Source: Flavobacteriales bacterium
GTDB taxonomy: Bacteria; Bacteroidota; Bacteroidia; Flavobacteriales_D; Sanyastnellaceae
Assembly: GCA_027491215.1 (NCBI GenBank)
Contig: JAIXWP010000057.1
Location: 1 to 43,772, forward strand
DNA length: 43,772 bases
Direction: 5' to 3'
The notes beneath the pieces were generated by a model. The model did no database searches and was not told the origin of the DNA. It saw only the letters and a program-made list of their open reading frames with translations. Positions 3,091 to 37,426 of this stretch are shown piece by piece; the first letter of the stretch is position 1, and the number at the start of each line of letters is the position of its first letter. The position numbers and the translations under genes were made by a program.

Positions 3091-3116
3091 TTATTGCGAG
3101 AGTTTCGTTCCCTGAG

Positions 3117-3155
3117 CGGAGTTTTCAATTAGCGAAGCGCAAATTGAAAACGGAG
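3117..3155. repeat. Small hairpin element nested inside the repeat, flanked by CGGAG duplications
   Basis: Copies of CGGAG lie at 3117-3121 and 3151-3155. Between them is a 29-nt unit whose ends TTTTCAATT and AATTGAAAA pair, with GCG-AAG-CGC at the tip. Removing one CGGAG plus the unit restores a continuous CCCTGAGCGGAG-TCGAAGGGG motif. The arrangement looks like insertion of a tiny palindromic element with a 5-bp target duplication. Confidence 0.65.
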
Positions 3156-3264
3156 TCGAAGGGGCGGTGCCCATCCGTGGAGCGACCTTTCTGTGATTGC
3201 TCGAAGTCGAAGGGGGCGGTGCCAACCCTTGGAGTTACTCTATTAAAAAGGTCTCAAAAAAAAA

Positions 3265-25593: not shown

Positions 25594-26385
25594 ATGAAGG
25601 TCCCTTTTTACAAGTATCACGGTACGGGTAATGATTTTATCCTAATCAATAGAACTGATTGGGATTACCCGATTTCTGAGAAACAAATTCAGACCATGTG
25701 TGATCGCCATTTTGGAATAGGTTCGGATGGTTTAATCTTTATCGAGAAAGATCCCAAAGGTGAAGTTGATTTTGTAATGAATTTTTATAACCCTGATGGC
25801 AGTCAGAGTTTTTGTGGCAACGGCAGTCGATGCGCTGTTCATTTTGCCCATCATTTAGGGTTGATTTCAGATAAATGTACATTCAAGGCCATTGATGGTA
25901 TTCATAGCGCTGAAGTCAATGGCAATCAAGTGAAAGTGGGTATGCGGGACTTGAAAGAGTGCGCCAAAATCTCTGACACGAAATATTTTCTGCACACAGG
26001 AAGTCCGCATTACATTGAGTATTTTGATCAAATTGCAGAGATCGATTTGATGAAGTGGGGAAGTGAGATTCGTTATTCGAAGGCTTATGCGCCATCTGGA
26101 ACCAACGTGAATGCCGCACATTATTTGGGCAATGGAAAAGTTGCGATGCGTACCTACGAAAGAGGAGTGGAGGCAGAAACTTTGTCTTGTGGTACAGGTG
26201 TCACTGCAGTGGCGCTGTCTGTGGCATTGCAACATCCACAAATTACGTCGGTAGAGGTTGTAACTCCTGGAGGAGAGCTAGAAGTTTTATTTGAAAAAAA
26301 TAGTCAACAAGAATTTAGAAATATTGTCCTTTCAGGGCCAGCACAAATGGTTTTTGAAGGCACTTTTAATTTATCGAATGAATAA
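25594..26385 (+). CDS. dapF: Diaminopimelate epimerase
   Basis: DapF interconverts LL- and meso-diaminopimelate for lysine and peptidoglycan synthesis. The 263 residues are the normal length. The two catalytic cysteines are visible in FCGNGSRC (C74) and SCGTGVTAV (about residue 199). The N-terminal YHGTGNDF motif is also present. The start ATG is only 4 nt after a -7 box. The stop overlaps the start of the next gene by 8 nt (ATGAATAA arrangement), so the downstream protein is probably translated from the same message. Confidence 0.97.
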   Translation: MKVPFYKYHGTGNDFILINRTDWDYPISEKQIQTMCDRHFGIGSDGLIFIEKDPKGEVDFVMNFYNPDGSQSFCGNGSRCAVHFAHHLGLISDKCTFKAIDGIHSAEVNGNQVKVGMRDLKECAKISDTKYFLHTGSPHYIEYFDQIAEIDLMKWGSEIRYSKAYAPSGTNVNAAHYLGNGKVAMRTYERGVEAETLSCGTGVTAVALSVALQHPQITSVEVVTPGGELEVLFEKNSQQEFRNIVLSGPAQMVFEGTFNLSNE

Positions 26386-27565
26386 ACTTTTTCTTTTTTT
26401 AGCAGTGATTTTGTCGTCACTATCGGCATCCGCTATTCGCCCAGCTGGTCAGAGTTTTGCTAGAATTACTATCTTAACTTGTACTCCAGGACCCGACTTG
26501 TATTCTGTATTCGGACACACCGCTATACGCGTAGAAGATAATTTTGGAGGTGAGCAAATCGACTGGGTTTACAACTATGGAACCTTTGAGTTTTCAGATG
26601 ATTTTTATTGGAAATTCGCTCAAGGAAAATTAGATTATAAATTATCGAAAAGTGATTTTGGTTTTTTCCAAGAAGAATATATCTATACTGGACGCGGCAT
26701 CTATGAGCAAGAGTTGATGCTTTCTCCTGAAGATAAATTCAAGTTGATAGAATTGTTAGAAGAGAATTATAAGCCGGAAAATCGCGTTTATCGCTATGAT
26801 TTTTTCTATGATAATTGTTCTTCACGTGTAAGAGATATTATCTTGAAAGCTGCTGGTAAGCCTACTTCATTTTCTTATGTGTATGCGCGTCCATACACGT
26901 TTAGACAGGCCATTCAAAATTATTTGAATTACATGCCTTGGAGTGATTTCGGAATTGATTTAGCACTTGGGATGCCCTGCGATCGCGTGATGGATAAAGG
27001 ACAGGCAATGTTTCTCCCAGATAGTCTTCTCAATGAATTTAATTACGCTACATATGGGGAGGGCCCAATTGCAGCGAAGTCACAAGAACTCCTACCTTAT
27101 GAATTTGAATTGAGCGATAGCACCGTATTTACACCGATGGTGGTGTTCGGGTTGTTCTTAATCGTTCAAATGATTTGGGGTTTTGTACGCTTGAGAAGTG
27201 GACGTAGCGTTGCAATTACAGATAGAGTGTTATTATTCACTACGGGCTTGGTAGGTGTGATGGTAGTTTTCTTATGGTTTTTCACAGATCACAATGCAAC
27301 AAAATGGAATTTGAATATTCTTTGGGCCAATCCACTTATGCTTTATTTAGCATTTGCGAGAATGGATAAGAAATGGATTAAGACCTATTGGAAAATTCAA
27401 GGGGGAATTTGTGTTCTATTGGTGGTCGGGTGGTTTTTCCTACCTCAACGTTTACACCTAGCGACCCTTCCAATGGTATTGGGATTATTGTTTATTAGCT
27501 TGCGTCAGGTTCGACCTCAGTTTTTTGTGTCGAATCGTGGAAAGCAGGGTAGAGCGGTCGCATAA
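26378..27565 (+). CDS. DUF4105 / Lnb-type lipoprotein N-acyltransferase-like membrane protein
   Basis: The 395-residue protein has a signal segment, then a periplasmic domain with C35 and H47 in TCTPGPDLYSVFGHTAIRV and the later FYDNCSSRVRD (Cys about 150). Four membrane helices follow in the last third (about 250-390). This matches DUF4105, which I recall is now annotated as the Lnb domain: a Cys-based enzyme that N-acylates lipoproteins in Bacteroidota lacking the classic Lnt. The Cys/His layout supports an enzyme. It overlaps dapF by 8 nt and precedes a lipoprotein gene. The exact reaction here is inferred from family naming. Confidence 0.82.
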   Translation: MNKLFLFLAVILSSLSASAIRPAGQSFARITILTCTPGPDLYSVFGHTAIRVEDNFGGEQIDWVYNYGTFEFSDDFYWKFAQGKLDYKLSKSDFGFFQEEYIYTGRGIYEQELMLSPEDKFKLIELLEENYKPENRVYRYDFFYDNCSSRVRDIILKAAGKPTSFSYVYARPYTFRQAIQNYLNYMPWSDFGIDLALGMPCDRVMDKGQAMFLPDSLLNEFNYATYGEGPIAAKSQELLPYEFELSDSTVFTPMVVFGLFLIVQMIWGFVRLRSGRSVAITDRVLLFTTGLVGVMVVFLWFFTDHNATKWNLNILWANPLMLYLAFARMDKKWIKTYWKIQGGICVLLVVGWFFLPQRLHLATLPMVLGLLFISLRQVRPQFFVSNRGKQGRAVA

Positions 27566-27578
27566 TGTATATGATACT

Positions 27579-29144
27579 ATGAAGAAATTATTGTTCGTCC
27601 TACTAGTAGTTTTATCCTTGTTTGGTTGTCGAAAGGAGCCTACCACATGGAATACAGAGGTGTTGGCTCCATTGGCAACAGGCACTCTTTCACTTTCTGA
27701 TATCATTCCCGATTCCATTTCTTACATAGATGAAAATTTTTTATATCACCTTGTATTTAATGAGTCCATCTCTGATTTGAATGTGGATTCTCTGGTGACT
27801 ATTCCAGACACGATTTTTTCTCAAAAATATGTGGTGCCTTTTAGCTCAGGTACGATTTCATTGCCTGCGGGCACTCAAATCATCAGTGTGAATGAAGAAA
27901 TTGAAGTGGGCAATGAAGATGTCGAACTTCATAACGTTATAATGAAGTCGGGCTATTTAAAATACAAGGTCAAGTCTTATATCAACGGATATATGACTTG
28001 CGTATATAATTTACCAGGGGCAACATTAGATGGAACTGCTTTAGCCATTACCGCAAATGTTTCGCCTTCAATTGGAGATATTCCGACTATTTCTGAAGGT
28101 CAGTTTGATTTGACGGATTACACTTTTGATTTAACAGGAGAAACAGGCAATGGATTTAATCAGTTGTTTTCTATGGGAACTGTTTCGGTTTCTTCAGATG
28201 CTCCAAGCAATGCATCTGTGCAAGGTCAAGACAGTGTGGTAGTTGAATTAGAGTTTATAGACGCGAAGGTGAAATATGCTAAAGGATATTTTGGACAGCA
28301 TTTATATTCATTTTCACAAAATGTATCTTTCCTAGATGACATTCAAATTCCTTCAGGAGTTTTAATGTTGGATCAAGCAAGAATGAATTTGAAGATTGAA
28401 AATAATGTAGGAGTCGATGCTCGATTTACTTTCAATGCTATTGAAGCAGGAAATGACAACGCTGCTCTTGCGCTTGATTACGCACCTTTTAATAATGCCA
28501 TAAACTTGACCAGAGCGATTGATAATGGCGGGATCGTGACACCATTCATCGCAAATTATTTGATCAATGAGAACAACAGTAATTTAACGTCTTTCATTGG
28601 CCTTTTGCCAACACAATTAAATATCCAAGGGCAAATTGAAATTAATCCACTTGGTAATATTTCTGGTGCAAGTGATTTTATTTATACTGATAATCCACTG
28701 CAGGCGTCCGTGGAAGTTGATGTTCCATTGAGGGTTGGTTTAGAAGGGCTCGGACTTCAAGATACGCTAGATATTATTTTAGAACAGGATGTAACTGCTA
28801 ATGGATATATCGTTTTGGTTGCGGAAAATTATTTTCCATTTTCGGCAGATATTAAATTGACCTTATTGAGCGACGAAAATTATCCGGAAGAAATCATTTT
28901 GAGCGGAGGTTATATCAATGCAGGTTATGAATCTTTTACTGGAGTAGTTTTAAATCCTTCAGTAAGTACGATTCGCATTCCTTTCACTTCGGAGCTTTTA
29001 GGTAGGCTTCGTCAAGAAAACCGAATGATCGCTCGGGTAACGTTTAATACACCTGATTTCCCTCAAGTGTATAGTTTGTATGATAAGTATAAAATAGATC
29101 TCCGCATGTTTATTGAAGCTGCGGCGGAAGTTGAAATCAGGTAA
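27579..29144 (+). CDS. Beta-rich lipoprotein of unknown function
   Basis: A 521-residue protein with a clear lipobox (LSLFGC, C17) after MKKLLFVLLVV. The remainder is beta-strand-rich and low in charge, with many Ile/Asn/Asp-rich segments (TGTLSLSDIIPDSISYIDENFLYHLVF; VSPSIGDIPTISEGQFDLTDY) and few cysteines. I recognise no domain with certainty. Residues are arranged like a surface Greek-key or jelly-roll protein. It lies between the Lnb-like gene and a DUF5723 barrel gene (3 nt), which suggests a surface lipoprotein working with that barrel. The start was placed at ATG 27579, not the longer frame from 27525. Confidence 0.8.
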   Translation: MKKLLFVLLVVLSLFGCRKEPTTWNTEVLAPLATGTLSLSDIIPDSISYIDENFLYHLVFNESISDLNVDSLVTIPDTIFSQKYVVPFSSGTISLPAGTQIISVNEEIEVGNEDVELHNVIMKSGYLKYKVKSYINGYMTCVYNLPGATLDGTALAITANVSPSIGDIPTISEGQFDLTDYTFDLTGETGNGFNQLFSMGTVSVSSDAPSNASVQGQDSVVVELEFIDAKVKYAKGYFGQHLYSFSQNVSFLDDIQIPSGVLMLDQARMNLKIENNVGVDARFTFNAIEAGNDNAALALDYAPFNNAINLTRAIDNGGIVTPFIANYLINENNSNLTSFIGLLPTQLNIQGQIEINPLGNISGASDFIYTDNPLQASVEVDVPLRVGLEGLGLQDTLDIILEQDVTANGYIVLVAENYFPFSADIKLTLLSDENYPEEIILSGGYINAGYESFTGVVLNPSVSTIRIPFTSELLGRLRQENRMIARVTFNTPDFPQVYSLYDKYKIDLRMFIEAAAEVEIR

Positions 29145-29147
29145 CGT

Positions 29148-30407
29148 ATGAAGAAGTTTTTAGCATTCGTTTTATTGTGTTTCGTTTTATTTGGTGCGAC
29201 TGCCCAAACTCCTACGTATTGGCTATTGGATAAAGAGAGAAGTTGGCAGAAGAATGGAGGCTTGATGATTCAAGCACATGGCAATGGCAATTGGGGTAGT
29301 AATGCGCTGGACAATCAGTGGTTTTATGATATGACGATAGGAGGCCATATTGGTCCAACTCAAGAAGAGACCTTGTTTAATAGTATGGAGGATTTTAATC
29401 GAGCAGGAGGCAACGTCAGTGGAGGTTTACATTTCTATAATTTCTCGGACAGTCTTTTCGGCGGTGATTGGGGATTACAAGTAGGGGCCAGTACAAATTA
29501 TTTTGCGAGTACCGGTTTTAGTCGTGATTTATTCGAGTTAACCTACATCGGAAATTACAGGCACCTTGGTGATACCATGAATCTAGGTCCGTTGTATGCG
29601 GAGTTCCAAGCTTTTCAAAAATTCGGATTTGGCTTTTTTAATAAAAATACTTTCACCAATGCGATGGTTAGCGTGGTGATGGGTCAAGATATGCAGAAGC
29701 TCGATGTGCGTAAAGCAGATTTGTTTACCAGTGCAAGTGTTGATCAAATGAATTTGATTTATCAGGGAGAGTTTCTTCAAGCGGATACTTCAAAAAGTGG
29801 TTTTGGTCAAGCCAAAGGATTAGGTATTGCATTGGATGGCGACATTAATATTCCAATGAAAGATGACAAAGGATTTATATCAATCTCTGCTAGAAATATT
29901 GGATGGGTTAATTGGAGTGAAAATACCAGCGTACAAGAGTTTGATACCACCTTTCAATGGACAGGGGTGGAGCTGCAAGGAATAGATAGTTGGGAAAACA
30001 ATGTTGGTGTACCTAGTTGGCAAGACACCTTGGGGATTTCTTCGCGTTTTGAATCTCGATGGGTTCCACTTCCAGGTTGGGTAAATTTGAGATTGCTTAG
30101 AAAGCTATCTTCTAAGATTTCGTATGAGGCTAATTTGAATGTACAACCTACATCGAATGCGATTCCTCAGCTTTCCTTTGGTTTTAATCATTTTGTAGCA
30201 AAAGGTTTGATGTTGCGTGAGCGAATCAGCTATGGTGGATTTGCCCGTGTTACGATTGGATTAGAAGCACAGTGGAAATTAAGTGATCGTTGGTTTATAA
30301 CAGCGGGAACGAGCCACGCGGCAGGATGGGTCAATTCTAGCGCACGGGGATTAAGCGCTTATGGAAGTGCTGCCTTTGTTATTCCATCGCATTCAATTTC
30401 AGAGTAA
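29148..30407 (+). CDS. DUF5723-family outer-membrane beta-barrel protein
   Basis: A 419-residue protein with signal peptide (FLAFVLLCFVLFGATAQ). Strand-turn-strand repeats are typical of outer-membrane barrels: GGLHFYNFSDSLFGGDWGLQVGAS, GIALDGDINIPMKDDKGFISISARNIGWVNWS, RVTIGLEAQWKLSDRWFITAGTSHAAG. Family DUF5723, often found beside beta-rich lipoproteins in this phylum, as here (3 nt upstream). Function unknown; possible partner of that lipoprotein. It is followed after 22 nt by kdsA. Confidence 0.8.
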   Translation: MKKFLAFVLLCFVLFGATAQTPTYWLLDKERSWQKNGGLMIQAHGNGNWGSNALDNQWFYDMTIGGHIGPTQEETLFNSMEDFNRAGGNVSGGLHFYNFSDSLFGGDWGLQVGASTNYFASTGFSRDLFELTYIGNYRHLGDTMNLGPLYAEFQAFQKFGFGFFNKNTFTNAMVSVVMGQDMQKLDVRKADLFTSASVDQMNLIYQGEFLQADTSKSGFGQAKGLGIALDGDINIPMKDDKGFISISARNIGWVNWSENTSVQEFDTTFQWTGVELQGIDSWENNVGVPSWQDTLGISSRFESRWVPLPGWVNLRLLRKLSSKISYEANLNVQPTSNAIPQLSFGFNHFVAKGLMLRERISYGGFARVTIGLEAQWKLSDRWFITAGTSHAAGWVNSSARGLSAYGSAAFVIPSHSISE

Positions 30408-30429
30408 ATTTGAACAATAATTAAAATAG

Positions 30430-31239
30430 ATGATTCAAGAAGTTCCAAATATTAAGCATTTAGAGAATGATAATTTCTTTCTCATAGCTGGTCCATGCGT
30501 AGTGGAAAGCGAAGAATTGATTTTCGAGGTTGCTGAGAAAGTAAAGGCCATTACCGATCGTCTCGGTATTCCTTACATTTTCAAAGCCTCTTATCGCAAA
30601 GCCAATCGCTCTAGAGGGGATAGCTTTACTGGAATCGGTGATGAAAAAGGATTAGAGTTGATTCGTAAAGTAGGTGATCATTTTAATCTGCCAGTGACAA
30701 CAGATTTTCACTCTGCAGAAGAAGCAGCGTTAGCTGCGAAGTATGTTGATATACTTCAGGTTCCAGCATTCTTGTGCCGCCAAACGGATATTCTTACTGC
30801 AGCTGCGGAAACAGGTAAAATTGTCAATGTGAAAAAAGGACAATTCCTTTCAGCAGATTCGATGGTGCACGCCGTGAATAAAATTAAAGAGGCAGGAAAT
30901 AATAAAGTTTGGCTCACCGAGCGTGGCACCACATTCGGATATCAAGATTTGGTGGTTGACTATCGTGGCTTGCCTGTGATGCAAAAGTTTGCTCCAACAA
31001 TTATGGACTGTACACACAGCTTGCAGCAGCCTAATCAGAGTAGCGGTGTTACAGGAGGAAAACCTGAATTGATAGAAACCATTGCTAAAGCTGCTGTGGC
31101 AGTAGGTGTTGATGGATTGTTTATCGAAACGCATCCAAATCCTGCAGTAGCAAAGAGTGATGGAGCGAATATGCTTCGTTTAGAATTACTAGAAGAGCTA
31201 TTAGTGAAATTAGTAAGAGTTAGAAAAGCAATCCGATGA
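30430..31239 (+). CDS. kdsA: 3-deoxy-8-phosphooctulonate (KDO-8-P) synthase
   Basis: KdsA condenses phosphoenolpyruvate with arabinose-5-phosphate to make KDO-8-P for lipopolysaccharide core. The 269-residue protein has FLIAGPCVVES near the N-terminus, YIFKASYRKANRSRGDSF (substrate loop), TDFHSAEEA and LTERGTTFGY, all typical KdsA blocks. The stop is in a 4-nt overlap with the next gene (ATGA), so the T9SS cargo downstream is likely co-transcribed. This fits an outer membrane with LPS or lipooligosaccharide. Confidence 0.97.
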   Translation: MIQEVPNIKHLENDNFFLIAGPCVVESEELIFEVAEKVKAITDRLGIPYIFKASYRKANRSRGDSFTGIGDEKGLELIRKVGDHFNLPVTTDFHSAEEAALAAKYVDILQVPAFLCRQTDILTAAAETGKIVNVKKGQFLSADSMVHAVNKIKEAGNNKVWLTERGTTFGYQDLVVDYRGLPVMQKFAPTIMDCTHSLQQPNQSSGVTGGKPELIETIAKAAVAVGVDGLFIETHPNPAVAKSDGANMLRLELLEELLVKLVRVRKAIR

Positions 31240-32630
31240 GATACATCATTTCCATTCTATTGACTGTTGCATTCTCTGCGCTAAAGGCGCAAGAACTCGC
31301 TCATACCATGAAAATTCAGGATGAGGGAAATGTTGATGTGATTGGAAGTTTTGAAAGTGTTCTTGGAGGATATATTACCATTTCTCAATCTGGGGCTGAG
31401 GATGCTGATGGAAATCACCTTATAATAAACCGCTTGGATAGCGATATGAATTGCACAGCAGGGCAAAAGATCTTGCTTTCTGATGCTACTTCATATTATC
31501 ATGCAGCGGAGGATGCAGAGGGTAATATTTATGCAGTTGGAATAAATTACAATAGTGGTGATTATGATGGTGTGATCATTAAAATTTCTCAGGACGGAAC
31601 ACTTCACTGGATGACACATCTCGGGAATGATGATTGGGATTCATTGGATCGGGTTGTCATCATGGATGATTATCTTTTAGTGGTGGGCTGGACCTATTCA
31701 AGTGGCACAGGCTTCCAAGATTTGATGTACGGTGCGGTTGCATTTGATGGTTCAATTATCTCTGAGCAATTCTTGTCACTCGATGCGAATGTCGAAGTGG
31801 TAGATCTTGCTTTTAATGATACGGGTGAGCCTTTGTTCTTGTTGAATCAAAGAGTTGGTGTAAACTACGCATATAGTATTTATGCATGGCAAAATGATGC
31901 CTGGGTTAATGTTTTCAATGATTATACAGATGGTAATTTGATCGCTCAGTGCTTTGATATTTATCAAAGTAAACTAGCGATAGGTTATAACTATTCTGTT
32001 GATGAAAGCGACTACAATTGGGTGCTTCGCCTATTTGATGAAAATCAATTCAATACTTTCACCTTCGATCAAGGAAATGATTTCGATTATCAGTTTAGTG
32101 ATCTCATTTATGATGATATTGTGTTGATGATTGGTCACCAAAATCAATATGGTCTTGGAGGACATGATATTCTTGTACAACAGGTAAATGCGGAAGCAAT
32201 CTTTGTTCATGCTATTACTTTCGGAGAAGGTGAGGATGATTTTGCAAGGCACGTTATGCGTACTTCAGACGGCGGCTTTTTAGTTAGCGGAACAACAGAA
32301 TTACAAGATCATACAAGAGATACATATCTTGTAAAATGGGATGAGCATGAAGTTTATGGATTTAGTTATACAGAAGCTGAAAGCTCAACGCAGTGTGATT
32401 ATGTATTGAGTATTGACCATTTCCAAAATGGAAGTTTGAGTGTGCAGGTATTGAAAGATGAGATTATTTTTAATACTACTATTTCGTCGTTCTCCATATT
32501 GAATATTGTTGGACAAGAGCTAGTGGCAGGCTCGAATTCAAATCGGGTTAGCATAGCGTCTTTGCCAGCGGGAGTATATTTCCTTGCGGATAAGTCAGCG
32601 GGACGATTGCTTAAATTCTATCATCATTAA
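31236..32630 (+). CDS. Secreted beta-propeller-like protein with type A T9SS sorting domain
   Basis: The 464-residue protein starts with a signal peptide (MRYIISILLTVAFSALKAQ) and has repeated short blade-like units (GGYITISQSGAEDADGNHLIINRLDSD; DGVIIKISQDGTLHWMTHLGNDDWDS; GGFLVSGTTELQDHTRDTYLVKWDE). These resemble SBBP-type repeats of extracellular Bacteroidota proteins. The C-terminal about 80 residues (FSILNIVGQELVAG...VSIASLPAGVYFLADKSAG) are a type A T9SS signal, predicting export through the type IX system and surface attachment. It overlaps kdsA by 4 nt. Substrate or partner unknown. Confidence 0.85.
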   Translation: MRYIISILLTVAFSALKAQELAHTMKIQDEGNVDVIGSFESVLGGYITISQSGAEDADGNHLIINRLDSDMNCTAGQKILLSDATSYYHAAEDAEGNIYAVGINYNSGDYDGVIIKISQDGTLHWMTHLGNDDWDSLDRVVIMDDYLLVVGWTYSSGTGFQDLMYGAVAFDGSIISEQFLSLDANVEVVDLAFNDTGEPLFLLNQRVGVNYAYSIYAWQNDAWVNVFNDYTDGNLIAQCFDIYQSKLAIGYNYSVDESDYNWVLRLFDENQFNTFTFDQGNDFDYQFSDLIYDDIVLMIGHQNQYGLGGHDILVQQVNAEAIFVHAITFGEGEDDFARHVMRTSDGGFLVSGTTELQDHTRDTYLVKWDEHEVYGFSYTEAESSTQCDYVLSIDHFQNGSLSVQVLKDEIIFNTTISSFSILNIVGQELVAGSNSNRVSIASLPAGVYFLADKSAGRLLKFYHH

Positions 32631-32632
32631 AG

Positions 32633-34057
32633 ATGGAGTCGGCCTGGAAGAATCGTCTACCAGTTGGGATACTTCTATTCTTTTCTGTGTTTTATATTCT
32701 CATTTCTCTAGTAAATCATTTTTGCTTTCGAACTTACGGACTAGATCTAGGCATGTTTAATCAGGCCATGTATCAGTTTTCTCACTTTGAAAATGCACAG
32801 TTTACACAAGGTGTCAAAGGCGATGTCATTCCTTATTTGGGAGATCATTTTTCAGTACTCACGGTGCTCTTGAGTCCACTTCAGTTTCTTGGTGGCAGCA
32901 TTACACTTTTGATCTTGCAAATTGTAGTTTTGATTTGGAGCGCTTGGATGTTGAATTTGTTGCTGCTGCGAAGGGATTGGGCGGCGACTGATCGCGCGTT
33001 GATTATGGTATTATATCTTTCAATGTGGGGAGTCGTGGCAGCGATGAGTTACGATTTTCACATGAACGTGATTGCTGCGTTTCTATTGATTCCTTGTATT
33101 TATTTTTTCTTGGAAAAAAAACTGAAAGCCATGTGGCTTGTGTTTTTGCTTATGCTTCTAACCAAGGAGAACACTGCTCTTTGGCTATTCTTTGTATTTA
33201 CCGGACTTGCTTGGATTCATAGATCGGACAGGGGTTTGAGGAAGACGGCACTTTTGCTCACTATCTTTTCTATTGTATATTTTATGGTGGTTGTTGGAAT
33301 AGTGATGCCATGGTTGAATGCTGGGAAAATCGCAGGGCCGTTGAAGGATCATTTTTTAGGAGGTCATGAGAGCTTGCTTGATTTTATCTATTACCAAGTG
33401 TCTCATCCCGTCGAGTTTATTGATGGGTTATTAAGAAATAGTGAAGGTAAAATAGCTTCGACGAAGCTAACGTCTATACAGTTCTTTTGCTTTGCTGGCG
33501 GGCTTTTGCTTTTTTTTAGACCGGTTTATTTATGGATGGTGTTGCCCATTTTTCTACAGAAATTTTTGAGTAATAATTCAATGATGTGGGATATCAAATA
33601 TCAATATTCTGTGGAGTTTGCACCAATAATTATTCTTGGTGTGATTGCGTTAACAGAACTCCGCAGCCTTAAGCGATATCGTTTGATAATTGTGTCGATG
33701 GTAATGGTAAGTTCTATTTATTGGACCATGAGAGAAGTAGTACTCAGAGATGTCCGGTCGAATGTTTTTGCAGCAGAGCATTATCAACCTAGTATTAATC
33801 GAGAGGCCTTCAGAGAGATTGAAGCAAGCATAGACGATAAAGCTACCCTAAGTGTTTCCTCTCATCTATCACCGCATGTCTCAGAGCGGTCGGTCGTTTA
33901 CGTCTGGCCAGTGGTAAAGGATGCGCGATATGTACTCATTGATAGAAATAGACTAGAACCGAATGAACATTCGGTAGTGCAAGATATTCTTCAAAACTCT
34001 GAATGGAAAGTTTTGAAGGAGCGAGGAAGTTTATTGTTGGTAGAAAGAGCTTATTGA
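32633..34057 (+). CDS. DUF2079-family membrane protein
   Basis: A 474-residue protein with about 10 membrane segments and the DUF2079 signature near the N-terminus: FRTYGLDLGMFNQAMYQF, then YLGDHFSVLTVLLSPLQF. This family is thought to be of glycosyltransferase (GT-C) type, with the acidic residue in the first loop, but no reaction is proven. It starts 2 nt after the T9SS cargo stop. Its end overlaps the convergent MazG-like gene by 7 nt. Confidence 0.85.
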   Translation: MESAWKNRLPVGILLFFSVFYILISLVNHFCFRTYGLDLGMFNQAMYQFSHFENAQFTQGVKGDVIPYLGDHFSVLTVLLSPLQFLGGSITLLILQIVVLIWSAWMLNLLLLRRDWAATDRALIMVLYLSMWGVVAAMSYDFHMNVIAAFLLIPCIYFFLEKKLKAMWLVFLLMLLTKENTALWLFFVFTGLAWIHRSDRGLRKTALLLTIFSIVYFMVVVGIVMPWLNAGKIAGPLKDHFLGGHESLLDFIYYQVSHPVEFIDGLLRNSEGKIASTKLTSIQFFCFAGGLLLFFRPVYLWMVLPIFLQKFLSNNSMMWDIKYQYSVEFAPIIILGVIALTELRSLKRYRLIIVSMVMVSSIYWTMREVVLRDVRSNVFAAEHYQPSINREAFREIEASIDDKATLSVSSHLSPHVSERSVVYVWPVVKDARYVLIDRNRLEPNEHSVVQDILQNSEWKVLKERGSLLLVERAY

Positions 34058-34464
34058 GCGTCGAGCACCTTTTTGATATCCGGTTTGAAATATCGATCAG
34101 ACTTCATCACCTTTCCATCTTCGCGATAGATTGGCTGGCCATTTTCGTCGAGTTTGGACATATTACTTCTGTGAATTTCCAGAAACACCTCTGCAATTTT
34201 ATGTTGCAACCCGTGAGCGTTTAGAGTGCCACAGAGAATGTAGAGTTGGTCGCCGAGAGCATCCGCTATTTCTACGAGATCGCCGTTTTTCGCTGCTTCT
34301 AAGTACTCTTCGTTTTCTTCTTTCATCAAGTTGAAGCGGAGCGTATATTCCTTTTCAGATAGTGATGCAGTTGGAGTGTGGCGATTGGTTATTTTGAATG
34401 CATCATGAAATTCTGCAACAGCATCAATAGTATCAGCAAGGGTGAGGAGATGTTTCTTTTCCAT
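34051..34464 (-). CDS. MazG-like nucleoside triphosphate pyrophosphohydrolase
   Basis: This 137-residue all-alpha protein has the paired acidic metal-binding motifs of the MazG/PRA-PH fold: KEENEEYLEA (EExxE) and EIADALGDQLYILCG (ExxD). It probably hydrolyses non-canonical or excess nucleoside triphosphates to monophosphates. Start is the ATG at 34464; an in-frame TTG lies two codons upstream. A perfect -7 box (TATATTTG) ends 3 nt before the ATG. The upstream gene on this strand is the 450-residue thioredoxin-fold protein, 18 nt away. Confidence 0.85.
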   Translation of the reverse strand: MEKKHLLTLADTIDAVAEFHDAFKITNRHTPTASLSEKEYTLRFNLMKEENEEYLEAAKNGDLVEIADALGDQLYILCGTLNAHGLQHKIAEVFLEIHRSNMSKLDENGQPIYREDGKVMKSDRYFKPDIKKVLDAQ

Positions 34465-34467
34465 TTT

Positions 34468-34475
34468 CAAATATA
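34468..34475 (-). promoter_or_regulatory. -7 box 3 nt before the MazG-like start
   Basis: TATATTTG (TAnnTTTG) on the minus strand. Placing +1 at the ATG would make the mRNA leaderless. It lies in the 18-nt gap after the preceding gene. Confidence 0.55.
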
Positions 34476-34482
34476 ACCGAGT

Positions 34483-35835
34483 TTATTTTATGAGTTCCAA
34501 CATTTCATCCAAAGCGATTTCGAGTTTGCTTCGCATGATGAGTCGTCGGAGCACTTTGCCATTGGCATCAATAGCAATAAGCGTGGGAGTGCTAGGAACG
34601 GGATATTTTTTACTAAAATCCTTTCTTGAATCATATGAGAGGAATACGCTTTTCCAAGGAGCGTTTTGTTCAGTAGCTTTTTTTCTCCAATCTGCTTCCT
34701 CCTTGTCACTGCCAATAGCGTACACTTCTACACCCATTGATTTATATTTCGCATAAATGCTTTGAAGTAGTGGTTCGAATTCCGCACAGTGATTGCAGTT
34801 GGATCTCCAGAACATGACAATCGTAACTTTATTTTTTTTGGCTAACTGGTGAAGATCAATTCTATTTCCTGCTAGATCTGGAAGTACAAGATTTGGAAAC
34901 GTATTCCCAGGCTTGCAGTTTTCTAGTGCAAGAATTAAATTCTTGGTATTAGAAGACAGCGATTCATTATCAGAGCAGTCGGGGGCATACCAAGTGAGAA
35001 GATAGGTTAGACCGTTTTCATTTTTATAGTCCAACATTTTTTCAAGCGTAAATCTGAAGAGAAGAGTATTGAGCGGTTCGTTGGCCATGCTGCGAGCAAG
35101 CACCTTGTCGATGTACTGATCAGCCGAACTGTCCTCGCGGAAATAGTAATAGTAGTGATTGAGGCTTCTTACGATAGCTTGATGATGCATGATCTCGGTC
35201 GACTCAAAAGGCCAGTTATCGAGTGCATGAATTTTATTGAATTGGAATATACTGTCTATGGATGGATTGCTATTCTGCCATTCAGGAGCGATAGGTAAAG
35301 AAGCTACAGGAATGATAAATTTTGATGTAAATGAGTTTGGATATGTTTTTTTGATCTCCTGCAAGCGTTCGATCATTGAAAGCTCACTGCGAAGGTGCGC
35401 CATGTTTTTTTTATCGACAGAATCACGGCCAGAAATGAAAGGATTATAAATTTTAGCGAAGGCTTGATAGGCCAGGTTTTCGTCGTCTTTAAATTCAGGG
35501 GATGGTTCGTTGTTGAGTTGATTAACGCTACATTGGAACATCATGCTCTTTGGCATACTTTCTTTTACTACGATGAAGTCGGACCAGTTGCGGGGTCGTG
35601 TTGAGATGCGAATGCGGTATTGACCATTGACCGGCCAGTTTACAGTTACCTTGAATTTTCCGAGAGCAATTGGGGTAGTAGTGAGTTGTTTCCAGCTGTC
35701 TTCATTCCAATACTCGATCACCACTTGTTCGTTAGGTCGGTCCGACATATCCGCGATGATTCCCGTAATCTCTGTTTGCGAGAACATCGAAAAGTATGAA
35801 AGGAAGAATGAGAATAGCAGTAGAAAACGCATCAT
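34483..35835 (-). CDS. Secreted thioredoxin-fold protein with DUF4369-like N-terminal part
   Basis: A 450-residue protein with signal peptide (MRFLLLFSFFLSYFSMFSQ). An N-terminal beta domain (about 22-110) has TEITGIIADMSDRPNEQVVIEYW, as in DUF4369-type leaders of Bacteroidota thioredoxins. A helical middle follows. A C-terminal TlpA/AhpC-like domain has VTIVMFWRSNCNHCAEFEPLL (active site CNHC, residues about 350) and the cis-proline segment VPSTPTLIA. It is a likely periplasmic thiol-disulfide oxidoreductase. Two ATGs (35835, 35832) are adjacent. Confidence 0.88.
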   Translation of the reverse strand: MMRFLLLFSFFLSYFSMFSQTEITGIIADMSDRPNEQVVIEYWNEDSWKQLTTTPIALGKFKVTVNWPVNGQYRIRISTRPRNWSDFIVVKESMPKSMMFQCSVNQLNNEPSPEFKDDENLAYQAFAKIYNPFISGRDSVDKKNMAHLRSELSMIERLQEIKKTYPNSFTSKFIIPVASLPIAPEWQNSNPSIDSIFQFNKIHALDNWPFESTEIMHHQAIVRSLNHYYYYFREDSSADQYIDKVLARSMANEPLNTLLFRFTLEKMLDYKNENGLTYLLTWYAPDCSDNESLSSNTKNLILALENCKPGNTFPNLVLPDLAGNRIDLHQLAKKNKVTIVMFWRSNCNHCAEFEPLLQSIYAKYKSMGVEVYAIGSDKEEADWRKKATEQNAPWKSVFLSYDSRKDFSKKYPVPSTPTLIAIDANGKVLRRLIMRSKLEIALDEMLELIK

Positions 35836-36322: not shown

Positions 36323-37312
36323 TTATGGTTTTGCCAATCGATATATCGATCCGTTTTTGGTGGAGAATTTTGTGATTTTTTTTTCTCCGACTAATACTTC
36401 TAATTTTTCTTGCGCAGCTTCAGTTGTTAGCTCGGAGAGCTCGGCGAACTCACGGACGGTGAGGGAAGGAAAAACAAAAAATAATCCCGACGGACTGCGG
36501 TTGTATTTCTTGGCAATAATCTGAGGCACTAATTGTTTCAATGCGGTTTCAATGGCCTCGAATTTTTGAAAACCATAAATGGTTTGTGTTTTTCCTTCTT
36601 TATTTGAAAGTATTAATGTTGGAAATCCACGCACACTAGACTTTTTACTCAAGGCAAGATCTTCTTCAAACAATATTTTGGCTGGCCCATCGAAATCCGA
36701 TCTTAATTTTTTTACATCAAGATTTGCCATGGTCGCTGCTTGTGATATCACTTCCCATTTGGCAATATTCTTTTTTTCCAAGAACACCATCTCTCGCATG
36801 ATGCGAAGAAATACCAATGCCTTTTCTAAATCCTGCATTTGAGCTGCTTTAAACGCAATCGAAGGTGGATATGAGGAATCGAGCGGATCTTCTAGCCAAA
36901 CATCCCCGTCGATAGGCATGTTGTAATATTTGCTCACTTCGTCCCAATGATGCGCTACATCAGAAGGCTTGCTAATGCCGCCGCTATTGTAACTCCAGTC
37001 AGGCAGAAGCCCTCCCATGTGATAAATAATGCTTACTTCCTCTCCATAAGCCAATTTCAATTTGCGCAATTGTGGCTCGATTCCCCAACAAGCGGAACAA
37101 ATAGGGTCGGTGAAATAGTGGATAGTAATGCTTTTCTCAGCACTGATGCCTGTAGAAGTGGTATCGCCTCCATTAGCTGCCGGAGCCTCACACACTCCCT
37201 TGGCGGGATCGCAAATCAACGGGTTGGTTTGTTCTGAAGTGCTGGGTTGACTGTTGCAACTTGTCACAATGAACAAACATAAACCGATAAGTATGTGAAG
37301 ACTTTTAAGCAT
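36323..37312 (-). CDS. DsbA-family (FrnE/YjbH-like) thiol oxidoreductase, lipoprotein
   Basis: A 329-residue protein with a lipobox-like TSC (C19). After a Ser/Thr/Ala linker (20-60) comes a DsbA-like thioredoxin domain with active-site C72-SA-C75 (TDPICSACWGIEPQL) and a helical insert. The cis-proline loop is RGFPTLILSNK, near residue 240. The C-terminal 60 residues (FPSLTVREFAELSELTTEAAQEKLEVLVGEKKITKF) look like a small winged-helix region. It probably oxidises or isomerises protein disulfides in the periplasm. A chimeric tRNA-like element sits 31 nt upstream. Confidence 0.85.
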   Translation of the reverse strand: MLKSLHILIGLCLFIVTSCNSQPSTSEQTNPLICDPAKGVCEAPAANGGDTTSTGISAEKSITIHYFTDPICSACWGIEPQLRKLKLAYGEEVSIIYHMGGLLPDWSYNSGGISKPSDVAHHWDEVSKYYNMPIDGDVWLEDPLDSSYPPSIAFKAAQMQDLEKALVFLRIMREMVFLEKKNIAKWEVISQAATMANLDVKKLRSDFDGPAKILFEEDLALSKKSSVRGFPTLILSNKEGKTQTIYGFQKFEAIETALKQLVPQIIAKKYNRSPSGLFFVFPSLTVREFAELSELTTEAAQEKLEVLVGEKKITKFSTKNGSIYRLAKP

Positions 37313-37343: not shown

Positions 37344-37426
37344 TGGAGAATGCGGGATTCGAACCAGTGACCTCTTGCATCCCGAAAGTTTTCGGGAAGC
37401 GCTCTAGCCAGCTGAACTAAGCCCCC
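37344..37426 (-). pseudogene. Chimeric tRNA-like element (Ala-GGC-like) interrupted by a hairpin
   Basis: On the minus strand a tRNA backbone is visible: GGGGGCT-TA-GTTC...GAGC, the D arm with GG in its loop, the variable AGGTC, and TTCGAAT in the T loop with 3' CCA. It most resembles an alanine (GGC) tRNA, but the anticodon-loop region is replaced by an 18-nt palindrome (TCCCGAAA-AC-TTTCGGGA, plus-strand 37380-37397), making 83 nt in all. The acceptor pairs GGGGGCT/ATTCTCC and T stem ACTGG/CCCGC contain mismatches, so the 3' end looks borrowed from another tRNA. I call it a tRNA pseudogene; a functional tRNA is unlikely. Confidence 0.6.

Follow-up and report, generated by a model that had tools for sequence, protein, structure and literature searches.

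At positions 37,344 to 37,426 of a contig from a Flavobacteriales bacterium, a sequence resembling a tRNA gene carries a palindrome where the anticodon should be, which raises the question of what this sequence is and how a palindrome came to stand there. The window, meaning the whole stretch of 43,772 nucleotides that was analysed, is contig C110 of a draft genome of 3.17 Mb in 150 contigs with an estimated completeness of 99.95%. The tRNA-like sequence, here called the relic, is a dead copy of a tRNA-Ala(GGC) gene. We read it, with a probability of roughly 0.6, as an orphan, non-functional copy left by a tRNA-parasitic GIY-YIG cassette that drives duplication in the manner of the phage endonuclease SegB; its link to any formerly adjacent open reading frame (ORF) is one that we infer. 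The features of the window that bear on this reading are as follows.

37344..37426, minus strand: degenerate full-length tRNA-Ala(GGC) copy of 83 nt, the relic (RF00005, 23.7 bits; no ARAGORN call; halves like the intact Ala-GGC genes of relatives).
37380..37397, unstranded: palindrome TCCCGAAA-AC-TTTCGGGA replacing the anticodon arm, the sole YYCCGN palindrome of the window and a hairpin in the RNA fold.
37374..37379, minus strand: TGCAAG, the kept 3' end of the anticodon arm; comparison with intact genes shows the anticodon and most of the 5' partner strand to be missing.
37352..37368, minus strand: T arm with a broken stem (ACTGG / CCCGC, three of five pairs) and an intact T loop, TTCGAAT, from the sequence and the RF00005 alignment.
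36323..37312, minus strand: DsbA-like ORF of the thioredoxin family (PF13743, 1.6e-49), starting about 30 nt past the relic; it is not counted as part of the element, 10 of 11 related loci having no tRNA.
26378..35835, unstranded: eight ORFs collinear with the congener G002, the collinearity ending where G002 carries its Ala-GGC gene.

A preliminary description of this locus had reported a tRNA-like gene resembling Ala(GGC), with a palindrome in place of the anticodon, and in location and main features it stands. The gene reads from 37426 to 37344, and its 5' half, its TGCAAG strand and its 3' end are common to the intact tRNA-Ala(GGC) genes of relatives. Those genes mostly read CTT-GCATGGCA-TGCAAG and the relic CTT-CCCGAAAACTTTCGGGA-TGCAAG, 17 nt (CCCGAAAACTTTCGGGA) thus standing for 8 nt (GCATGGCA) that include the anticodon. 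These 17 nt are part of the 18-nt palindrome, which has 8-bp arms and a 2-nt centre, and it is the palindrome TCCCGAAAACTTTCGGGA that stands for the anticodon. In a functional tRNA-Ala a 5-bp stem would carry a 7-nt loop with the anticodon; here the palindrome has taken the anticodon and some of the 5' stem. By eye, six of the seven acceptor-stem positions pair (two as G-U) and three of five in the T stem, and the relic carries several further substitutions. The same description held that the 3' acceptor and T-stem strand does not pair with the 5' side, which is correct for the T stem and wrong for the acceptor, and that CCA is encoded; the apparent CCA is acceptor positions 71-73, CTTC follows, and the relic has no CCA tail. 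The chimera of two tRNAs that it proposed was rejected as unneeded, since the acceptor pairs and both halves match Ala-GGC. A tRNA intron was likewise rejected, since removal of the palindrome would restore no anticodon arm, the gene having lost GGC and bases of the 5' stem strand.

The relic scored 23.7 bits against the Rfam tRNA cut-off of 29, compared with 48.4 bits for the lowest of the 29 tRNA matches above cut-off in its own genome. ARAGORN made no tRNA call at 37344-37426, and no Rfam match at the gathering threshold was obtained in the whole window. The low score that had been proposed as a check was thus obtained, and the suggested pseudogene with a palindrome holds. The exact palindrome arms were found at the relic only, that pattern and its reversed control each occurring once in the 3.17-Mb genome; for this reason the palindrome by itself is unremarkable and it is its position that is remarkable. 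The intact Ala-GGC gene proposed as a further check was not found elsewhere in the assembly. The tRNA search of the genome returned 31 matches, namely the 29 above cut-off, the relic and a truncated tRNA at the end of contig C101, and no tRNA-Ala was among the genes called at these loci across the whole assembly. The C101 partial gene was considered as an Ala tRNA and rejected, being truncated with the loop TTGTGGT (GTG, His-like by eye). The missing Ala tRNA is not proof of loss, because the assembly also lacks a 16S rRNA and calls for tRNA-Ile(GAT) and tRNA-Tyr; a tRNA-Tyr-like start runs into the contig end in L005. By a scarred duplicate we mean retained tRNA halves with a YYCCGN palindrome for the anticodon arm. 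The relic has this form, with no intact tRNA of its kind beside it in the window or anywhere else in the assembly.

Scarred Ala copies were then sought in other genomes. A gap pattern that normal Ala-GGC genes do not match was scanned in one genome per species for 84,980 species and returned eight stretches, seven of which are an Ala-GGC-like copy with an anticodon-arm palindrome (six with CCCGA, one with CCCGC in L075) and one of which, L081, is of another kind. Four of the seven adjoin an intact Ala-GGC gene. A stricter pattern of tRNA plus palindrome matched six of 399 genomes of the order, the present one included, against none for the reversed control; the six matches are the relic, four copies adjoining intact Ala-GGC and one copy by an Ala-TGC gene in an rRNA spacer. 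A viral origin based on the pattern was rejected: the three stretches that it matched in viral contigs lack a tRNA call and appear to be chance matches. Beside tRNA-Ala(TGC) genes, L084 has a palindrome-scarred fragment in a presumed rRNA spacer, and L036 and L042 carry tRNA-like elements with odd anticodon arms, also following tRNA-Ala(TGC) in presumed rRNA spacers; ARAGORN called that of L042 tRNA-???.

The replacement of an arm by a palindrome recurs in copies of several tRNA species, and it is the local tRNA that is directly repeated. Copies of Ala, Val, Arg, Lys and Leu genes have a hairpin such as TCCCGA-TTTTA-TCGGGA for the anticodon arm, with tRNA sequence resuming on both sides. The usual form in Bacteroidota is YYCCGN...NCGGRR, and the copies are partial, lie on the same strand and flank the tRNA genes. 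Other copies have the scar elsewhere, those of Met in the variable region, those of Phe and Asn in the T loop and those of Arg and Ala in the D arm; the palindrome is sometimes of a different sequence. Two layouts were seen. In the downstream layout an intact tRNA is followed by a presumed terminator, an ORF and a copy that begins at about nt 16-26, includes the palindrome and extends to the 3' end; the terminator often follows once more. In the upstream layout the upstream sequence (a presumed promoter) and the 5' half of the tRNA are followed by a palindrome, a piece extending to the T arm, an ORF or spacer, and the intact tRNA. Since the repeated tRNA and flanks belong to the host itself, we infer that the duplication was made locally. 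Most copies are anchored at one end; the relic is full length, and L080, L114 and L126 are nearly so. Repeated units of 88 bp in L077, 87 bp in L126 and 379 bp in L128 look like tandem expansions. By eye, upstream-type copies (L077, L105, L114, L128) often stop in the T arm near GGTTC.

An ORF of about 84 residues often lies between the intact tRNA and the scarred copy. It adjoins the scarred Ala copies in L034 (whose sequence equals L078), L037, L075, L079 and L082, a fragment of it is found in L080, and L077 ends within an apparent ORF of this kind. The scarred copies in G002, G130 and G037 (the last at a contig end beside the tRNA) show no ORF in view, so ORF and palindrome can exist separately. 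Six ORFs from scarred loci matched the GIY-YIG family PF01541 with E values from 2.8e-17 to 2e-10. In NCBIfam only a group I intron endonuclease model was matched, below its cut-off, and PADLOC gave weak partial matches to defence models for three of four ORFs (E 4.8e-4 to 6.7e-3). One of the ORFs was searched against a phage collection and matched nothing there. In L079 (156-404) the stop codon of the ORF falls inside the next tRNA-Ala copy (TCA GCT GGC TAG), so that the same bases encode the protein C-terminus and belong to the tRNA D arm.

These ORFs are associated with tRNA genes in the relatives. A profile built on five of them was searched in 395 genomes of the class and matched 269. At the 30 best-scoring loci an intact tRNA lies within 1.5 kb in 24 cases (22 of 28 if L098 and L099, apparently the query's own genomes with features as in L082 and L075, are left out) and within 100 nt in 22. 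The nearest called tRNA is on the ORF strand at all 24; in L101 and L126 that call is itself a scarred copy, with the intact tRNA also on the ORF strand. Five of the remaining six loci hold a scarred tRNA copy, and at the exception, L127, neither a tRNA nor a scarred copy was seen. A lower-scoring sample of 20 non-tandem matches from 18 genomes, taken upwards from the bottom of the matches listed, had an intact tRNA at 16 loci, with none at L142, L143, L144 and L155. Twelve tandem arrays, chosen by hand, had one in eleven cases. An unrelated protein family served as control, with an intact tRNA at one of 11 loci (12 less the window's own); L072 and L073, from another query, also have none. The tRNA species at GIY-YIG loci include Ala, Val, Arg, Lys, Leu, His, Asn, Asp, Met, Pro, Phe, Thr and Ser. 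Linkage of the ORF to tRNA genes, as in a SegB-like cassette, is thus present in the relatives, and the window itself has no GIY-YIG ORF. The own genome has three PF01541 matches, all away from this locus, one of them a small ORF on contig C40 (E 1.4e-17) with no adjacent tRNA copy.

The palindromes might be mobile in their own right, as very small dispersed repeats of REP, MITE or cyanobacterial type that enter tRNA copies while the GIY-YIG gene merely shares the niche. This is unlikely, and it has points in its favour. Scarred copies have no ORF in view in the window, in G002 and G130 and at the tRNA-Asn gene of the own genome, as well as in G037 at a contig end. L016 and L082 each have two palindromes within one copy; in L016 (1623-1711; G000:C34, near a contig end) this is the partial copy downstream of the own tRNA-Asn(GTT), with TCCCGTTAGAACGGGA in the anticodon region and TCCCGCAGCTGCGGGA in the T loop. 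The loose form TCCCGA..TCGGGA was found 317 times in 60 genomes against 100 for its control, and 10 times against 3 in the own genome. This excess over control is only about threefold, so the loose palindrome is not an abundant repeat, and for the exact palindrome an abundant REP was rejected on its single place in the genome; many near-identical copies, as expected of a REP or MITE, were thus found in neither form. Sequence and length of the palindromes also vary among loci, they replace an arm, and no target duplication was noticed at the flanks of the copies inspected. They are much denser at GIY-YIG loci than at others, YYCCGN palindromes being present at 25 of 30 such loci, 6 of 12 tandem loci, none of 11 control loci and 2 of 29 own-genome tRNA loci, a count that includes some terminator-like hairpins, misses a few long-loop scars (e.g. 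L103) and has some overlapping loci. One of the two own-genome loci is that of tRNA-Asn(GTT), and some of the six tandem loci without the motif carry other palindromes. The preliminary description had small palindromes hopping into structured RNA genes of this genome. Palindromes do occur in its tRNA copies, at tRNA-Asn(GTT) and tRNA-Ser(GGA); free hopping into structured RNA genes in general is unsupported, because the scars occupy duplicated pieces of an adjacent tRNA, mostly the anticodon arm, and are linked to GIY-YIG genes in relatives. The very small mobile repeats of cyanobacteria, reportedly described by Elhai et al. in 2008, share with these palindromes their shortness and their presence inside genes. 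REP palindromes are also short and found within genes, and according to the available text of PMC3733652 they carry GTAG or CGTC tags; by eye neither tag lies beside 37380-37397, and the exact palindrome is not of high copy number, and palindromes of this kind are enriched at tRNA duplicates.

Simple decay is less probable still. By this account a resident tRNA-Ala(GGC), redundant to Ala-TGC, was killed by a one-off template-switch mutation that created the palindrome, with no element involved. The gene neighbourhood, which is that of the Ala-GGC gene of G002, would agree with a resident gene, as would the absence of another Ala-GGC from the assembly and the extra substitutions and broken T stem of the relic. 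G002 has an intact tRNA-Ala(GGC) about 85 bases past the last shared gene. Past 35835 no ORF of at least 100 residues in the window matches the corresponding stretch of G002. The relic lies 1.5 kb on from the end of the shared genes, on the strand opposite to that of the G002 tRNA relative to them, so a rearrangement is required; given the gene collinearity, its place is probably the former Ala-GGC locus, rearranged. A truncated scarred copy, with TCCCGATGGGATCGGGA in its anticodon arm, lies directly downstream of the intact gene in G002. Across many genera, copies of several tRNAs carry a palindrome of this kind at the same position, the Ala-GGC of G002 and the own tRNA-Asn among them, which argues against a one-off event.

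A function of the scarred copies as expressed tRNA-like RNAs, for example as decoys against anticodon-arm nucleases with the GIY-YIG protein as partner, is very improbable. Upstream-type copies do retain the tRNA upstream sequence and 5' half, and the hairpin that replaces the anticodon arm is about the size of that arm (16-29 nt in copies, 17 nt in the intact gene). Phage tRNAs are described in the available text of PMC13096335 as countering tRNA-cutting defences. Against this, the acceptor strand is missing in many copies, the T stem of the relic is broken, and its minimum-energy RNA fold keeps a hairpin of 7 bp with a 4-nt loop and has no cloverleaf (z -1.16). An assembly or binning artefact at a repeat, conceivable in a draft of 150 contigs with several tRNA arrays at contig ends, is hardly credible with the relic 6 kb inside its contig and equivalent structures in the one-contig genomes G529 and G653.

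The preferred reading remains the tRNA-parasitic GIY-YIG element, whose complete form, present in many Bacteroidota genomes, has a stand-alone GIY-YIG ORF (about 84 residues) next to a tRNA gene and, beyond the ORF, a duplicate of half of that tRNA or sometimes of nearly all of it. The putative nuclease would cut within the tRNA gene, and repair would then duplicate a tRNA half together with upstream or downstream sequence and introduce the ORF; one tRNA would remain intact, allowing the host to survive. The palindrome would mark and disable the spare copy, making it neither a tRNA nor a good target, and the repeats could later expand into tandem arrays or collapse. The locus in the own genome has neither ORF nor intact partner and keeps one full-length scarred copy, which would fit a collapsed end state. 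Points against the reading are that the window locus has no GIY-YIG ORF, that the relic is full length and requires a rearrangement relative to G002, and that palindromes do not always occupy the anticodon arm, with some loci lacking a YYCCGN palindrome or a tRNA. Candidate roles for the palindrome are a protective tag, a recombination site or an independent small repeat; because some scars elsewhere have no ORF in view, it may arise or move without the nuclease. A broader proposal, put forward tentatively and at somewhat less than even odds, is that Bacteroidota chromosomes hold undescribed minimal selfish elements, made of an 84-residue GIY-YIG nuclease and an arm-replacing palindrome, that live at tRNA genes, spare one intact tRNA, tag or protect the spare copy by the palindrome and expand into arrays; the window would then be an end stage in which the genome lost its only Ala-GGC gene when the unit collapsed.

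Several known systems share parts of this arrangement. Phages and genomic islands integrate in tRNA genes by means of tyrosine recombinases, duplicating part of the tRNA and leaving one intact gene. Part of the tRNA is duplicated here too, but the ORF lies on either side of the intact tRNA, a palindrome replaces an arm and no integrase is needed to describe the unit. Endonucleases that target the anticodon region of tRNA genes share the target region, but here there is no intron, and the anticodon of the relic cannot be restored by splicing because 17 nt replace it. At E of 0.01 or less the ORF profile matched no solved chains except two single-domain GIY-YIG proteins of the UPF0213 group, PDB 1zg2 (7.3e-10) and 1ywl (7.9e-9); these chains of 107 and 96 residues are named hypothetical, with no tRNA-linked role given.

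SegB is the closest system. The available text of PMC13096335 and PMC2988022 describes it as a free-standing GIY-YIG homing endonuclease by the tRNA genes of the T-even phages T4 and T6, with cuts mapped within tRNA genes, a role in driving segmental amplification, a location near many tRNA isotypes and homologues in phages of Bacteroidota. Its reported motif, RAWTSGAAC (PMC13096335, available text), appears to be the tRNA T loop read on the other strand. A stand-alone GIY-YIG gene by tRNA genes is common to SegB and the Bacteroidota units. SegB, however, is phage-borne, with no palindrome-scarred tRNA duplicates reported in that text, whereas the present units lie in bacterial chromosomes, usually with one tRNA per unit and an ORF of about 84 residues. 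By this analogy the Bacteroidota units look like a chromosomal version of the SegB arrangement. Among the open-licence papers listed, judged by title and abstract, no description was found of palindrome-scarred tRNA copies or of chromosomal GIY-YIG genes by tRNAs in Bacteroidota, phage SegB being the nearest; the available text of a GIY-YIG superfamily paper (PMC1564403) has no word starting with Bacteroid-.

Scars beside tRNA genes in many related bacteria, often with a tiny GIY-YIG gene, suggest a mobile element, little noticed so far, that parasitises tRNA genes. The class is rich in small GIY-YIG genes, as the profile matches indicate, and if these genes are tRNA-gene parasites they gain a role, the theme of phage SegB reaches bacterial chromosomes, and how a host survives a nuclease that cuts essential tRNA genes becomes a directly testable question. 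Scarred copies also mislead annotation, and the arrays may break assemblies. Scarred copies at L101 (1724-1799), L126 (1737-1816), L111 (1119-1213) and L114 (777-857) were called tRNA-Phe, tRNA-Glu or tRNA-Lys by ARAGORN, miscalls that arise because their hairpin loops mimic anticodons.

Two further palindromic sequences were observed in the own genome. Upstream of its tRNA-Ser(GGA) gene (L029; G000:C136), the first 18 nt of that gene are repeated and followed by a different palindrome-like stretch, GTCCTTCGGCGAAGCTCAGGAAC. The preliminary description had also drawn a parallel between the relic and a nested hairpin near 3117 of the window. Kinship with that hairpin (3122-3150) was rejected, since it has a different sequence and a single place in the genome, and no tRNA was called in the window. 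At 3116-3156 the hairpin TTTTCAATTAGCGAAGCGCAAATTGAAAA stands between 6-bp direct repeats, CGGAGT, within CTGAGCGGAGTCGAAGG-type sequence, and it looks like an insertion with target duplication.
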